Position numbers and translations under genes: made by a program | In this document: one piece after another, positions 35,132 through 39,925 of the stretch | Position numbering within the stretch: the first letter of the stretch is position 1 | Layout of the letters: each line of letters opens with the position of its first letter | The notes under the pieces: generated by a model | What the model was told of the DNA's origin: nothing | Databases searched by the model: none | The model's input: the letters and a program-made list of their open reading frames with translations, nothing else | Assembly (NCBI GenBank): GCA_024278935.1 | Contig: JAJRSF010000043.1 | Location: forward strand, 1 to 40,353 | Reading direction: 5' to 3' | Source: Candidatus Zixiibacteriota bacterium | GTDB lineage: Bacteria > Zixibacteria > MSB-5A5 > GN15 > FEB-12 | DNA length: 40,353 nt

Positions 35132-35455
35132 ATGAGTACACCTCTTAACATTACAGACGACCAATTTGAAAAAGAAGTTCTACAATCAGATGTACCTGTT
35201 GTGGTAGATTTTTGGGCAACTTGGTGTGGTCCATGTAAAATGATCGCCCCGATTTTAGAAGAAGTCGCTGGTGAGTATGCTGAAAAAGTGAAAATCGTCA
35301 AAATTGATGTTGATTCTAACAGCGAAACTGCTGCCAAACATAGTATCATGTCGATTCCGTCATTGTTATTCTTTAAAAATGGTGAAGTAGTCGAAAAAGT
35401 AGTAGGTGCTGTTCCTAAAGCAAAATTGACTTCTTTGATAGATGGTATTCTCTAA
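35132..35455 (+). CDS. trxA: Thioredoxin
   Basis: The 107-residue product is a classic thioredoxin. The active site WCGPCK occupies residues 31-36, the buried Asp and aromatic precede it in VVVDFWAT, the cis-proline is in SIPSLLFF (Pro76), and the C-terminus is FKNGEVVEKVVGAVPKAKL. It reduces disulfides in the cytoplasm and is the usual electron donor for DsbD, whose gene lies 2.6 kb downstream. GGAG sits 7 nt before the ATG. It has its own promoter candidate and terminator, so it is probably monocistronic. Confidence 0.97.
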   Translation: MSTPLNITDDQFEKEVLQSDVPVVVDFWATWCGPCKMIAPILEEVAGEYAEKVKIVKIDVDSNSETAAKHSIMSIPSLLFFKNGEVVEKVVGAVPKAKLTSLIDGIL

Positions 35456-35482: not shown

Positions 35483-35510
35483 AAACCGGTGCAAGCCGGT
35501 TTTTTTTTTA
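35483..35510 (+). terminator. Rho-independent terminator after trxA
   Basis: AAACCGG (35483-35489) and CCGGTTT (35496-35502) form a 7-bp stem with a 6-nt loop, followed by a long T run. It separates trxA from the small membrane gene downstream. Confidence 0.92.
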
Positions 35511-35556: not shown

Positions 35557-35595
35557 AATTGCACTTTACTAATGAAAGAAAAATAAGGAATTCAA

Positions 35596-35784
35596 ATGAA
35601 TTTTACTGACATCTTATACCTCGGCTTATTTATAGTCGTGTGGCTGTTTTTGGTAACGAAAGTATTTCCAAAATTTGGTATACATTCCTGAGCAACTGCT
35701 CCTTGTGATCTCCCGGCGGGAGATAAGAAAAAGAAAGCTCAGGTTGAAATAACTGATAAATCAGATGAGCAGAATCTGACTTAG
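35596..35784 (+). CDS. Candidate small membrane selenoprotein (in-frame TGA, residue 32)
   Basis: AAGGA lies 7 nt before ATG 35596. The frame encodes a 31-residue membrane peptide (MNFTDILYLGLFIVVWLFLV, then TKVFPKFGIHS). It meets TGA at 35689-35691 and continues in the same frame for 30 codons to TAG 35782-35784. The continuation begins ATAPCDLPAGDKKKK and ends in a charged tail, giving a coherent membrane-anchored, soluble-tailed protein of 62 residues. If the TGA is read as selenocysteine, U32 and Cys37 form a U-x4-C pair. A perfect 7-bp hairpin follows at SECIS distance. The basic residues after the helix suggest the tail faces the cytoplasm, where thioredoxin acts. Alternatives are a Cys codon (TGC or TGT) mutated or misread as TGA, or a real 31-residue peptide. 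I do not recognise a named family. Confidence 0.55.
35708..35724 (+). promoter_or_regulatory. SECIS-like hairpin downstream of the in-frame TGA
   Basis: ATCTCCC (35708-35714) pairs perfectly with GGGAGAT (35718-35724) around a GGC loop, or 6 bp around CGGCG. The loop starts 23 nt after the TGA and begins with G. Bacterial SECIS elements generally have the apical loop about 16-37 nt after the UGA with a G in its first positions. It lies inside the coding frame, as bacterial SECIS elements must. A 5-bp repeat GAGCA/TGCTC directly at the TGA is also present. Confidence 0.5.
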
Positions 35785-35838
35785 ATAATTAAACGACAAA
35801 TTTTAATGTATTTGTCAAAATGTCCGATAGTAAATTAT

Positions 35839-36669
35839 ATGAGCTATTATCAACAACAAAGCGGTTCTAGTCGCCCCGGTTTCAACTTTGGCCCGGGGAC
35901 ATTATCGCCATTTATCAAAGTAATGATTATTGTGAATTTTGTTGTATTTTTGCTACAGCAAGATTACTTGATGCCTGGTTTGTCGGGTATCTTTGGGTTG
36001 ACCCCATATACATTTTTTAAAGATTTCCCAAACCAACTTTATCAACCGTTCAGCTATATGTTTTTGCATGGTGGCTTAGGCCATTTTTTCTTCAATATGC
36101 TCATCCTCTGGATGTTCGGTACTGAAATTGAATTGACTTGGGGAACCAAACGGTTTGCCAAATTTTATCTGCTTGGTGGACTGGCAGGTGCCGTTCTGAC
36201 TCTTATTGTAAAATCGTCACAGATTGCTCCTATGGTGGGGGCATCGGCTGCGATATATTCGGTGATGGTGGCATATTGGTTTTTGTATCCAAACCGTCAG
36301 TTGTATATCGCTTCGGTTTTACCTGTGCAAGTGAAGTGGGCGATTCCCGGAATGATGCTTCTAGGCTTTCTATTTGGTGGCGCCAATGTAGCACACTTTG
36401 CTCATTTAGGTGGGGCATTGTTCGGAATTTTATATATGAAAACTGATTTTGGTATGTTATCTTTTTCAAAGAAACTCAAAGAGCGTAAATATAAAAAGCA
36501 GGAAGCGAAGTTTGAGAAGAATCGCAAGAATGCTGAAAAAGTTATGAACCGTGTCGATGATGTGCTGGATCGTATCAATGAAGTCGGTATAGAAAATCTG
36601 ACTAAAGAAGAACGAAAAATATTAGATGACGCATCAAATGGTTTGTCTAAAAAAGATCAGTTAAAGTAA
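35839..36669 (+). CDS. Rhomboid-family intramembrane serine protease
   Basis: The start at ATG 35839 is preferred because MSYYQQQSGSSRPGFNFGPG leads directly into the first transmembrane helix, as in related proteins. An ATG at 35806 would add 11 residues, and neither has a strong ribosome-binding site. Rhomboid signatures are present: FLHGGLGHFFFN (H77, H82, N86), the catalytic serine in GASAAIY (Ser136) and the catalytic histidine in AHFAHLGG (His189). About six membrane helices precede a basic, charged cytoplasmic tail (about 205-276) rich in Lys, Asn and Glu. Rhomboids cut transmembrane segments of substrate proteins. It lies 54 nt after the small TGA-containing gene and 18 nt before the receiver gene, so these may be co-transcribed. 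Confidence 0.92.
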   Translation: MSYYQQQSGSSRPGFNFGPGTLSPFIKVMIIVNFVVFLLQQDYLMPGLSGIFGLTPYTFFKDFPNQLYQPFSYMFLHGGLGHFFFNMLILWMFGTEIELTWGTKRFAKFYLLGGLAGAVLTLIVKSSQIAPMVGASAAIYSVMVAYWFLYPNRQLYIASVLPVQVKWAIPGMMLLGFLFGGANVAHFAHLGGALFGILYMKTDFGMLSFSKKLKERKYKKQEAKFEKNRKNAEKVMNRVDDVLDRINEVGIENLTKEERKILDDASNGLSKKDQLK

Positions 36670-36687: not shown

Positions 36688-37896
36688 ATGCCTAAAAGAA
36701 TTTTATTAGCTGAAGAATCTGATACGATTAGAAAAATTGCTGAATCTCTGCTCAGACAAAATGGGTTTGAGGTTCTCTCGATGACTACCGGGGCAAAAGC
36801 TCTTGAAGTGCTCAATTTTACTTCTCCTGATTTGATTGTTGTCGCTTATGATATGAAGTTTAAAGGCGAAACAACTCTTTTTGAAAAACTTAAATCTGAT
36901 TCGAAAATTTCACAAATCCCTCTGGTATTGCTTGCTAATGAAGATGCGACTGATTTACCTCTGCCAACTGAAGCGGTGATTTCGAAACCATTTGACCCAA
37001 AAGAATTCATAGAAAAGATAAATCTATTTTCGGGGCAATCACAATCAACTCCTAATCCACTTGCGAATTCAGATTTAGGCAATGATGATGAGTTTTTAGA
37101 TATGGCTTTAGGGCTTGACCAACTCGATGTGACCGATTCGGAAGTCATGGGTAAAACGATTACGAAAAAAATTAAAAAGCAGCCATCTGTTGAGAAGATG
37201 ATCGGCTTTGAACATAAAGAAGATATAACAGATAACCAGTCTGATTCTGGCAGAATTGAATCGCTCATGATTACAGACGATCATACTGATATAAAACATA
37301 GCCAGCAGTCGACTCCTAACGCTCCTGAATTAACCGGGACAGGCAAGCTCGATATTTTGGATGATCAGTTTGGTATTGTCAATGCTAATTTAGGTGAAGA
37401 TTCAAAGGAAGATACTGATCATGATTACAACTGGTTTCTCGATGAATTAGCTAGTGATAATAATATTGATGCCGGTAAACCAAAATCAGGGTCTCAGTCA
37501 AATGGCTCATTGGATTCTCAAAGTTTGACGTTTGAAGATAACGCATCGAAGGTCAGCCCGTCAACTCCTGCGAATCAACAATCGGCAGTATCTCAGCCAT
37601 CATCGGTGGATAAATTTATAGATGAGTTCAAAAAAGAAGTTGAAAAATTTGGTTCTGATGAACCTGAGTCGATTACATTAAAAGATCCAAATCAGAAATT
37701 ATCTGAATCCGGGTCTGTCATGCAATGGACAGATTCCGTTGAAAATATAACACCTCAACAGATTCAAATATTCAAAAAAGAATTTGTTTCTGAACTTGCT
37801 GAAAAGCTGGCAGTTAAAATTGCTGATAAAATTGATGCGGAGAAACTTCTCCAGTTGCTCAAACAAGAAATTATCAATAAAGCAAAAAAAATCTAA
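36688..37896 (+). CDS. Receiver-domain protein with degenerate phosphorylation site and long linker
   Basis: The first 115 residues have the response-regulator fold (KRILLAEESDTIRKIAESLLRQNGFEVL ... ISKPFDPKEFIEKI). However, the position of the phospho-acceptor Asp is Ala53 in PDLIVVAYDMKFKG; the nearest Asp is residue 55. The acidic pair is EE/SD, the usual Thr/Ser is Ala84, and only Lys100 is kept. Phosphotransfer is therefore doubtful. Residues 116-330 form a low-complexity, acidic, Ser/Asn-rich linker. The last 60 residues are an amphipathic helical region (TPQQIQIFKKEFVSELAEKLAVKIADKIDAEKLL) that probably mediates binding. There is no DNA-binding output domain. It follows the rhomboid gene by 18 nt. 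Its role is unknown, perhaps as a scaffold. Confidence 0.7.
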   Translation: MPKRILLAEESDTIRKIAESLLRQNGFEVLSMTTGAKALEVLNFTSPDLIVVAYDMKFKGETTLFEKLKSDSKISQIPLVLLANEDATDLPLPTEAVISKPFDPKEFIEKINLFSGQSQSTPNPLANSDLGNDDEFLDMALGLDQLDVTDSEVMGKTITKKIKKQPSVEKMIGFEHKEDITDNQSDSGRIESLMITDDHTDIKHSQQSTPNAPELTGTGKLDILDDQFGIVNANLGEDSKEDTDHDYNWFLDELASDNNIDAGKPKSGSQSNGSLDSQSLTFEDNASKVSPSTPANQQSAVSQPSSVDKFIDEFKKEVEKFGSDEPESITLKDPNQKLSESGSVMQWTDSVENITPQQIQIFKKEFVSELAEKLAVKIADKIDAEKLLQLLKQEIINKAKKI

Positions 37897-38029: not shown

Positions 38030-38746
38030 ATGCCGTTAGATTTTCTAAAACAAACTAAGAACTCTTTTTTACTGACATGCTTGTTATTACTTATAGCAGT
38101 GACTCCAGTTTTTGCACAAACAGATTTTGGCGGAGGCGGCGATACTGAACCAATTGTAACTATCTCATCAGTTTTTTCAAGCTCCGAAGCAGAAGTAGGC
38201 AAGGCATATGATGCTGCCTTAATCGTGCATATTTTGGATCATTGGCATATCAACTCGGATGCTCCACTTCAAGACTTTCTCATTCCTGCTAAACTTACAA
38301 GTGGCGAGTTTACCGACTACACAATTTTAGATGTGAACTACCCGTCAGCATCTACTATTAATGTCGGTGGTAGTGATATGTTGGTATATAGTAATAAAGC
38401 AGTAGTGAAATTTAAAGTTTTGATAAATGAAAAATATAACGGTTCTACTATTGATATTCCGCTTTCCTTTTCTTTCCAACCATGTGATGATAAAACTTGT
38501 GTAGCTCCAGATGAATTAACACAAAATTTAAAAATAAAAATAGGTTCAAACGGCACAGCTCTGAATCAGGAATTGTTTGCTGCTCAAACAACACAAACTA
38601 AAACTGAAGTAATAGTAGAGGAAGCCGATCCTATAGTTTCGGCAGAGGCAAATGAACTACAACAAATTATAGATGAAAATGGTTTCTGGGGATATTTCTT
38701 AGTTCTTGGGATTGCATTTATCACCGGGCTTCTGCTTTCATTCTAG
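38030..38746 (+). CDS. dsbD: DsbD thiol:disulfide interchange protein, N-terminal part up to an in-frame TAG
   Basis: AAGGA lies 8 nt before ATG 38030. The 238 residues contain a signal peptide (FLLTCLLLLIAVTPVFAQ), the periplasmic DsbD alpha domain with its redox pair in FQPCDDKTCVAPD (Cys152 and Cys157), and the start of the first membrane helix (GYFLVLGIAFITGLLLSF). TAG at 38744-38746 stops the frame exactly where the family reads T/S in the motif FTPCVYPM. The next codons, still in frame, give PCTYPMIPITVS. DsbD moves electrons from cytoplasmic thioredoxin to periplasmic thiol proteins. The interruption is either a real mutation or a base error. Alone, this fragment would be a periplasmic domain with one membrane anchor and no electron source. 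Confidence 0.85.
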   Translation: MPLDFLKQTKNSFLLTCLLLLIAVTPVFAQTDFGGGGDTEPIVTISSVFSSSEAEVGKAYDAALIVHILDHWHINSDAPLQDFLIPAKLTSGEFTDYTILDVNYPSASTINVGGSDMLVYSNKAVVKFKVLINEKYNGSTIDIPLSFSFQPCDDKTCVAPDELTQNLKIKIGSNGTALNQELFAAQTTQTKTEVIVEEADPIVSAEANELQQIIDENGFWGYFLVLGIAFITGLLLSF

Positions 38747-39925
38747 CCATGTACTTATCCGATGATTCCGATTACGGTTTCGATATTTGCGGGTCAGTCA
38801 CGTTCGATGGGACGTGGATTTATTCTGTCATTATTTTATGTCGGGTCGATGGCGTTTGTCTATGGAATAATGGGGCTGATAGTTTCGCTTGTCGGTGGAG
38901 TCTTTGGGGCGTGGCTTGCGAACCCGATGGTCGTGATCGGCATGTCGGTTGTCTTTGTCATATTTGCACTTTCAATGTTTGGTTTATACAATCTTGAAGT
39001 ACCGATGGCACTCCGAAACAAATTAAGCTCATCAGGGAAAAAGAGTGGAGTTGGTGGGGTGATAATTTTAGGTGCTATTGCTGCTTTGGTAATCTCGCCA
39101 TGTGTCGGACCATTTGTCGCAGGAATTCTTGCATATATCTCGACTTTCCAAGACCCACTGTTTGGCTTTTTGATACTCTTCGTTTTTGCTATTGGGCTCG
39201 GAACGTTATACATTATTGTTGGTACATTTTCGTCGGCGATTACATCGCTTCCCGGTGCAGGGGGATGGATGGAGACTGTCAAGAAATTCTTCGGATTTGT
39301 ACTTCTTATGACGGCACTTTATTTCTTACGGACGATTTTACCTGAAAATATTTTGGTTCTTTTGACAGGTCTTCTGCTTTTAGCTCTTGCTGTTTTTGGC
39401 GGAGGGCTTGATAAGTTGACATCGGAATCACCATTTTTTGATCGGTTAAAGAAATTTATCGGCGTTATGTCGTTTCTTGTAGCGATCTATTTACTTGGTG
39501 GCTTGTTGCTTATGAACGGATTTATACTACCGGAAATGTCGTCGATTGGTGTAAGTTCATCTACTCATCAGGAAGCAGAAATTGACTGGAAAACTGATTT
39601 AAATGCAGGGCTTGCTCTTGCCAAAGAAACCGGTAAACCGGTGATGATTGATACTTGGGCAACATGGTGTGCAAATTGTAAAGTGCTCGATAAAAAAACT
39701 TTTCAGAATGCGTCGGTTGTCGATGAGTCCAAACGGTTTATAGCTTTGAAGATTCAACTTGAAACATCTGATTCACCGGAATCGAAACAGTTTATGAAAC
39801 AGTTTGGTATGAAATCATATTCACTTCCGACAGTTTTACTTTTAAGCCCGGATGGAAAAGTGAAAAAGATTTTAACCGGCGTTGTTGGTCCTGATAAAAT
39901 GATTGCGGAAATGCAAAAATTATAA
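38747..39925 (+). CDS. dsbD: DsbD, membrane and C-terminal thioredoxin domains (continues in frame after TAG)
   Basis: The frame continues without shift from the TAG at 38744. PCTYPMIPITVSIFAGQ, with the first membrane redox Cys, is followed by several membrane helices. A second conserved segment, LVISPCVGPFVAGIL, carries the partner Cys. The C-terminal gamma domain is thioredoxin-like, with DTWATWCANCKVLDKKTF (CANC) and the cis-proline in SYSLPTVLLLSPDG. The first ATG in this part (38762) lies inside the conserved motif after the catalytic Cys and has no ribosome-binding site, so it is not a natural start. Together with the upstream part the gene would encode about 631 residues, a normal DsbD length. 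It ends before a strong terminator. Confidence 0.85.
   Translation, partial: PCTYPMIPITVSIFAGQSRSMGRGFILSLFYVGSMAFVYGIMGLIVSLVGGVFGAWLANPMVVIGMSVVFVIFALSMFGLYNLEVPMALRNKLSSSGKKSGVGGVIILGAIAALVISPCVGPFVAGILAYISTFQDPLFGFLILFVFAIGLGTLYIIVGTFSSAITSLPGAGGWMETVKKFFGFVLLMTALYFLRTILPENILVLLTGLLLLALAVFGGGLDKLTSESPFFDRLKKFIGVMSFLVAIYLLGGLLLMNGFILPEMSSIGVSSSTHQEAEIDWKTDLNAGLALAKETGKPVMIDTWATWCANCKVLDKKTFQNASVVDESKRFIALKIQLETSDSPESKQFMKQFGMKSYSLPTVLLLSPDGKVKKILTGVVGPDKMIAEMQKL

Follow-up and report, generated by a model that had tools for sequence, protein, structure and literature searches.

The eukaryotic selenoproteins SELENOK and SELENOS bind derlins, which are relatives of the rhomboids. Nearly all selenoproteins have Cys homologues, as stated in a review (PMC13188914), and since cysteine versions are so common, the reason for keeping selenium is hard to tell. 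For the bacterial SECIS element (bSECIS) the published limits are a loop of 3–9 nt, a stem of 4–16 bp, a minimum free energy (MFE) of at most −7.5, a G within the first two loop positions and a distance of 16–37 nt from the UGA (PMC13188914). Among detection methods, deep-Sep requires a minimum of one known homologue with Sec or of two with Cys. The gene described here lies in a stretch of 40,353 nt from a Candidatus Zixiibacteriota bacterium (the window). Judging from its sequence and that of its relatives, it is best read as belonging to a new selenoprotein family that spans the membrane once, is linked to thioredoxin and apparently occurs with Sec only. We put the probability that it is one of a conserved family of membrane selenoproteins into which Sec is inserted at roughly 0.93, a figure that excludes the chemistry; the support for Sec insertion is comparative and comes mostly from metagenome-assembled genomes.

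The gene occupies positions 35596–35784 of the plus strand, on which all window features given below are found, and comprises 62 codons including Sec, followed by a TAG stop, as seen in the sequence and its homologues. Its translation reads MNFTDILYLGLFIVVWLFLVTKVFPKFGIHS-U-ATAPCDLPAGDKKKKAQVEITDKSDEQNLT. A ribosome-binding site AAGGA (35585–35589) precedes the ATG by 6 nt. Hydrophobicity, charge and an AlphaFold helix point to a single transmembrane segment with its hydrophobic core at residues 5–22 (35608–35661, approximate codons). Immediately past this core the family alignment places the motif P-K-F-G-I-H-S-U (35668–35691), closing with the TGA of codon 32 (35689–35691), and a Cys follows at codon 37 (U+5, 35704–35706). 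The frame with ribosome-binding site, membrane helix, TGA, Cys 37, charged tail and TAG, which an earlier note had drawn from the DNA alone, was confirmed in all its elements.

Homologues with one in-frame TGA were found in more than 50 of 98 relatives searched. In the window's phylum, a profile search of 132 genomes returned 65 carriers, and a later profile added G121, bringing the phylum total to 66/132 with TGA at codon 32. With a profile search of 386 genomes the family was seen to extend to other phyla, where 32 genomes from 27 families possess TGA members (24 plus eight, the loci being read singly) in a sample of 254 genomes. In total, the Sec codon is TGA in 98 genomes and Arg in one. 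No Cys form was detected in the 386 genomes with two profiles carrying C in the Sec column, so that the term Sec-only refers to these genomes plus a few more. The earlier note had asked for homologues with TGA or Cys at this position; TGA was found and Cys was not. Because the TGA is common to close and distant relatives, it can be regarded as safe from assembly error. Weak matches in G272, G154, G127, G025 and G055 were partial, lacked the motif and were discarded as chance. A single-sequence search of genome contigs gave two close relatives only, and a plasmid search gave no match.

Two of the loci deserve separate mention. In the copy of the SelB-positive genome G376 (L191), CGA (Arg) stands in place of the Sec codon and the frame stops eight codons further on; it is a degenerate or non-Sec copy. 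For the other locus (L047, G001:C228), a contig deposited as Calditrichaeota bacterium CLD4 matches one placed in the genus of the window's genome. The second named relative of the same genus is a Zixiibacteriota MAG, and the deposited name of the CLD4 contig may be outdated.

Conservation does not end at the TGA, as the frame and the hairpin are both kept beyond it. None of 89 members has a stop within 16 codons past the TGA in frame 0; the same test in the other two frames gave a stop in 18 and 67 of the 89 sequences. In the 15 nt following the TGA, 52 of 105 changes between near-relative pairs fall on third positions, a bias that is weaker than in the N-terminal part and, since the pairs are not independent, counts as support and not as proof. 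The tail past Sec measures 17–43 residues.

The relatives share frame, TGA and hairpin with the window gene. In the window, the hairpin ATCTCCC-ggc-GGGAGAT (35708–35724) was characterized by folding, covariation and background comparison. Its MFE ranges from −8.7 to −9.8 kcal mol−1, with −9.8 kcal mol−1 and a z score of −2.5 for a 26-nt segment. The 7-bp stem and the G-first loop reported in the earlier note are present, the loop starting 23 nt past the TGA, and with a loop of 3 nt, a stem of 7 bp and G in first position the hairpin lies within every published bSECIS limit, which also answers the proposal to score it. At −5 kcal mol−1 or better, a bSECIS-like hairpin occurs in 81/96 members (84 %) compared to 12 % of 5,721 other TGA triplets from the same loci; at −7.5 the numbers are 46/96 members and 5 %, respectively. 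Compared with shuffles, the folding energy was lowest in the 40-nt stretch 12–52 nt past the TGA, where the mean z was −1.32, with weaker values on both sides. Stems show compensatory changes, in a search that chose the best hairpin and is biased towards structure, and the loop G is found in 86/89 members. With an unfitted pairing in fixed register, 75 % of cells were paired in the phylum members, compared to a maximum of 65 % in 1,000 shuffles. Rfam returned no SECIS match, only sub-threshold chance matches. On this comparative record the hairpin is under selection.

The genome of the window encodes a tRNA-Sec with anticodon TCA as well as SelB and SelA above cut-offs, so that selA, selB and selC, for which the earlier note had suggested a search, are all in place. 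SelB is above cut-off in 113/132 phylum genomes. As it is near-universal there, the association outside the phylum is the sharper test. Among the outside genomes, all 31 sampled carriers possess SelB compared to 114/254 genomes overall (hypergeometric P = 1.2e−12), with the reservation that the genomes, though from different families, are not fully independent. With the first profile alone, SelB was found in 25/25 outside carriers (P = 4e−10). The note's suggestion that the gene encodes a small, hitherto undescribed membrane selenoprotein with a SECIS element is thereby supported by the conserved TGA and frame, the covarying hairpin, the sel genes of the genome and the strict SelB association in other phyla. 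Two outcomes that the note had named as refuting it, a lack of conservation past the TGA and a genome devoid of selB/selC, did not materialise. Sec insertion at codon 32 appears nearly certain by this comparison.

Two nonsense codons were noticed in the same genome. Its selA (L215, G000:C64:9741–11075) shows an in-frame TGA at a codon that specifies Leu or Val in nine relatives; a real TGA there would impair Sec synthesis or call for read-through, and otherwise it is a base error. In dsbD, a TAG at 38744–38746 (LLLSF*PCTYP) replaces the Ser (TCT) found in G002 and G003 and represents a nonsense mutation or an assembly error. With both of these codons in view, bases of the window assembly may be wrong, or the functions may be lost in the organism.

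The family is defined by the motif P-[KR]-x-G-[VI]-x-[TSG]-U, in which Pro at −7, Gly at −4 and Sec are invariant or nearly so; a Trp in the helix is present in most members. Flanking charges predict an N-out/C-in orientation for 87/88, and Sec is predicted about 9 residues beyond the hydrophobic core. For the window protein, whose 30-residue tail contains one Gly, AlphaFold gave a single confident helix at residues 3–28 followed by a disordered tail (mean pLDDT 65.5). The predicted topology is that of a single-pass protein with the N-terminus outside and a disordered tail, bearing Sec, in the cytoplasm. The earlier note had also proposed a U-x4-C redox pair. The Cys at codon 37 is indeed there, and 40/65 phylum members (about 60 %) share it, but the other 25 carry various residues at this position, and the pair can accordingly be neither essential nor the defining motif.

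Two known protein types were considered on account of partial resemblance. FeoB-associated Cys-rich membrane proteins (PF12669) are short, with a single helix and thiols after it, as in the present family, but the match was not significant (best E value 0.1, in 3/30 members). PrxQ/BCP shares the Pro seven residues ahead of the catalytic residue and a C-x4-C-like spacing; here, a single member matched with an E value of 0.11 and 12.5 bits vs. a cut-off of 260, and the family has one helix and no thioredoxin fold. The PrxQ resemblance is probably due to convergence or chance.

Throughout the phylum the gene order trxA, selenoprotein gene, rhomboid gene, receiver-domain gene, and ccdA or dsbD is strongly conserved. 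In the window, trxA (35132–35455, WCGPC, Pfam PF00085, assigned with the aid of synteny) is parted from the selenoprotein gene by a terminator-like hairpin (35483–35502), and the rhomboid protease gene (35806–36669, PF01694) adjoins on the 3′ side, as in most of the phylum, where it usually starts within 100 nt. A response-regulator receiver domain protein (36688–37896, profile match) and dsbD follow (38030–39925, profile match and relatives; ccdA in most relatives). The placement between trxA and dsbD given in the earlier note was therefore correct on the upstream side only; downstream the next gene encodes the rhomboid, and dsbD comes two genes later. In the receiver-domain protein, a long stretch without recognised output domain follows the receiver.

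trxA adjoins the selenoprotein gene in most of the phylum. In two families of the order (L095, L099, L104–L111 and others), a CoA-binding-like gene lies between the two. In two class-level relatives (L112 in G122, L113 in G088) the gene has an acyl-CoA dehydrogenase-like gene directly upstream and sits apart from trxA and rhomboid, with TGA and hairpin retained. Three genomes of the same family as the window's (G020, G018, G023) are without the gene and keep trxA and rhomboid. Their trxA–rhomboid spacers were examined for Cys orthologues and contained no family frame, which suggests that the gene was lost rather than turned into a Cys form.

Outside the phylum, neither rhomboid nor ccdA/dsbD was detected near the gene, and most loci have no thioredoxin gene beside it. 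A thioredoxin-like gene is nevertheless found within 1 kb on the same strand at 7/32 outside loci, upstream in L169, L172 and L173 and downstream in L180, L198, L200 and L205; some of these are related, leaving about four independent lineages. The genome-wide background of thioredoxin genes should be below 1 % per neighbour.

Taken as a mechanism, these observations could be arranged as follows. Decoding of the UGA by SelB and tRNA-Sec with the aid of the hairpin 16–33 nt downstream has strong comparative support and would yield a predicted single-pass inner-membrane protein with the N-terminus outside and a short disordered cytoplasmic tail. In the reading that we favour among those considered, its selenol would be a redox centre on the cytoplasmic side of the membrane and might react with an oxidant or a membrane-borne disulfide; candidate substrates are peroxides, lipid hydroperoxides and membrane-protein disulfides. 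A selenenylsulfide would then form with the Cys at U+5 where present, otherwise with a partner, and the oxidised selenol would be reduced by the neighbouring thioredoxin. The earlier note had inferred electron exchange with thioredoxin, which gains support from the recurrent linkage to thioredoxin genes; a link to DsbD in particular has little behind it, as DsbD/CcdA is encoded two genes downstream and in this phylum only. We give the thioredoxin-linked selenol mechanism somewhat less than an even chance.

Instead, the protein might act as an adaptor of the SELENOK/SELENOS kind, its cytoplasmic Sec tail serving the quality control of membrane proteins, jointly with the rhomboid in this phylum, and thioredoxin acting as reductant. 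The predicted architecture is the same (single N-terminal helix, N-out/C-in, disordered cytoplasmic Sec tail), the rhomboid gene adjoins downstream at most phylum loci, and SELENOS has been called a probable thioredoxin-linked reductase (PMC10650576). However, no rhomboid gene was seen close to the gene in other phyla, same-family genomes keep trxA and rhomboid without the selenoprotein, and 17–43 residues of a tail that is not Gly-rich follow Sec instead of one or two, making such a role unlikely. An electron relay from thioredoxin to DsbD/CcdA, carrying cytoplasmic reducing power into the membrane thiol–disulfide pathway, would fit the phylum order, in which trxA precedes the gene and ccdA or dsbD lies two genes further on. 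DsbD and CcdA take electrons from thioredoxin directly, two other genes intervene, and outside the phylum ccdA/dsbD was not detected in the vicinity, all of which renders the relay quite improbable. Similarly low is our estimate for a metal or metalloid ligand, in which the selenol would bind a soft metal (Hg, As, Cu) at the membrane with no electron cycling. Several Sec transport proteins in the catalogue of families are thought to bind metals (PMC13188914), and genes that by their sequence look like ArsR-type regulators precede L180 and L192, but a second ligand Cys is not conserved, the thioredoxin linkage recurs and a recurrent metal gene was not noticed. Finally, a true stop, giving a 31-residue single-helix membrane peptide that as such would be a plausible small protein, with the hairpin acting on the mRNA or on downstream expression, is practically negligible in view of the frame open past the TGA in 89/89, the hairpin at bSECIS distance, the codon that is always TGA and never TAA or TAG, the perfect SelB co-occurrence outside the phylum and the preference for third codon positions in the changes just past the TGA.

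Returning to the selenoprotein family with its putative thioredoxin-linked selenol, Pfam, NCBIfam and PHROG models gave no credible match. The protein P0001 matched no model of the three collections, for NCBIfam not even at E 10, while the other members tested gave chance-level matches only. No obvious equivalent appears in Table 1 of the 2026 catalogue of 119 bacterial selenoprotein families (PMC13188914), and no report on membrane or rhomboid-linked bacterial selenoproteins was found in the openly available literature. As far as these resources reach, the family is undescribed; an earlier unnamed listing may exist. The family was probably overlooked on account of the reliance of established methods on Cys/Sec pairs: filters for Cys homologues such as that of deep-Sep would discard such genes, and standard gene calling would cut them at the UGA to 31-residue peptides. 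In a wider and rather doubtful reading, the family would be a widespread, ancient, obligate-Sec membrane micro-protein with no Cys counterpart in nature, a bacterial analogue of SELENOK/SELENOS with no substitute for its selenium, and it would have escaped notice since Cys homologues are a requirement in most discovery methods. A family encountered only in the Sec form, and missing instead of Cys-converted in several same-family genomes, offers a direct test of Sec irreplaceability.

Similar to the catalogued bacterial selenoproteins (PMC13188914), the family combines a UGA, a bSECIS within limits and dependence on SelB and tRNA-Sec with a likely redox use. It differs from them by having neither a Trx-like or other known fold nor Cys homologues found. 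GOS_A is likewise an uncharacterised predicted selenoprotein, but is reported with 155 Cys homologues (PMC2398784) compared to none found here, and is set apart by its description. In SELENOK and SELENOS, Sec is second or third from the C-terminus, whereas 17–43 residues follow it in the family, the tail of which is not Gly-rich; no sequence relation is shown and the decoding is bacterial. Since two defining features fail, the analogy makes no claim of membership. What the family would have in common with SELENOK and SELENOS, as predicted, is the single N-terminal helix in N-out/C-in orientation, the disordered cytoplasmic tail bearing Sec and thioredoxin as a possible reductant.
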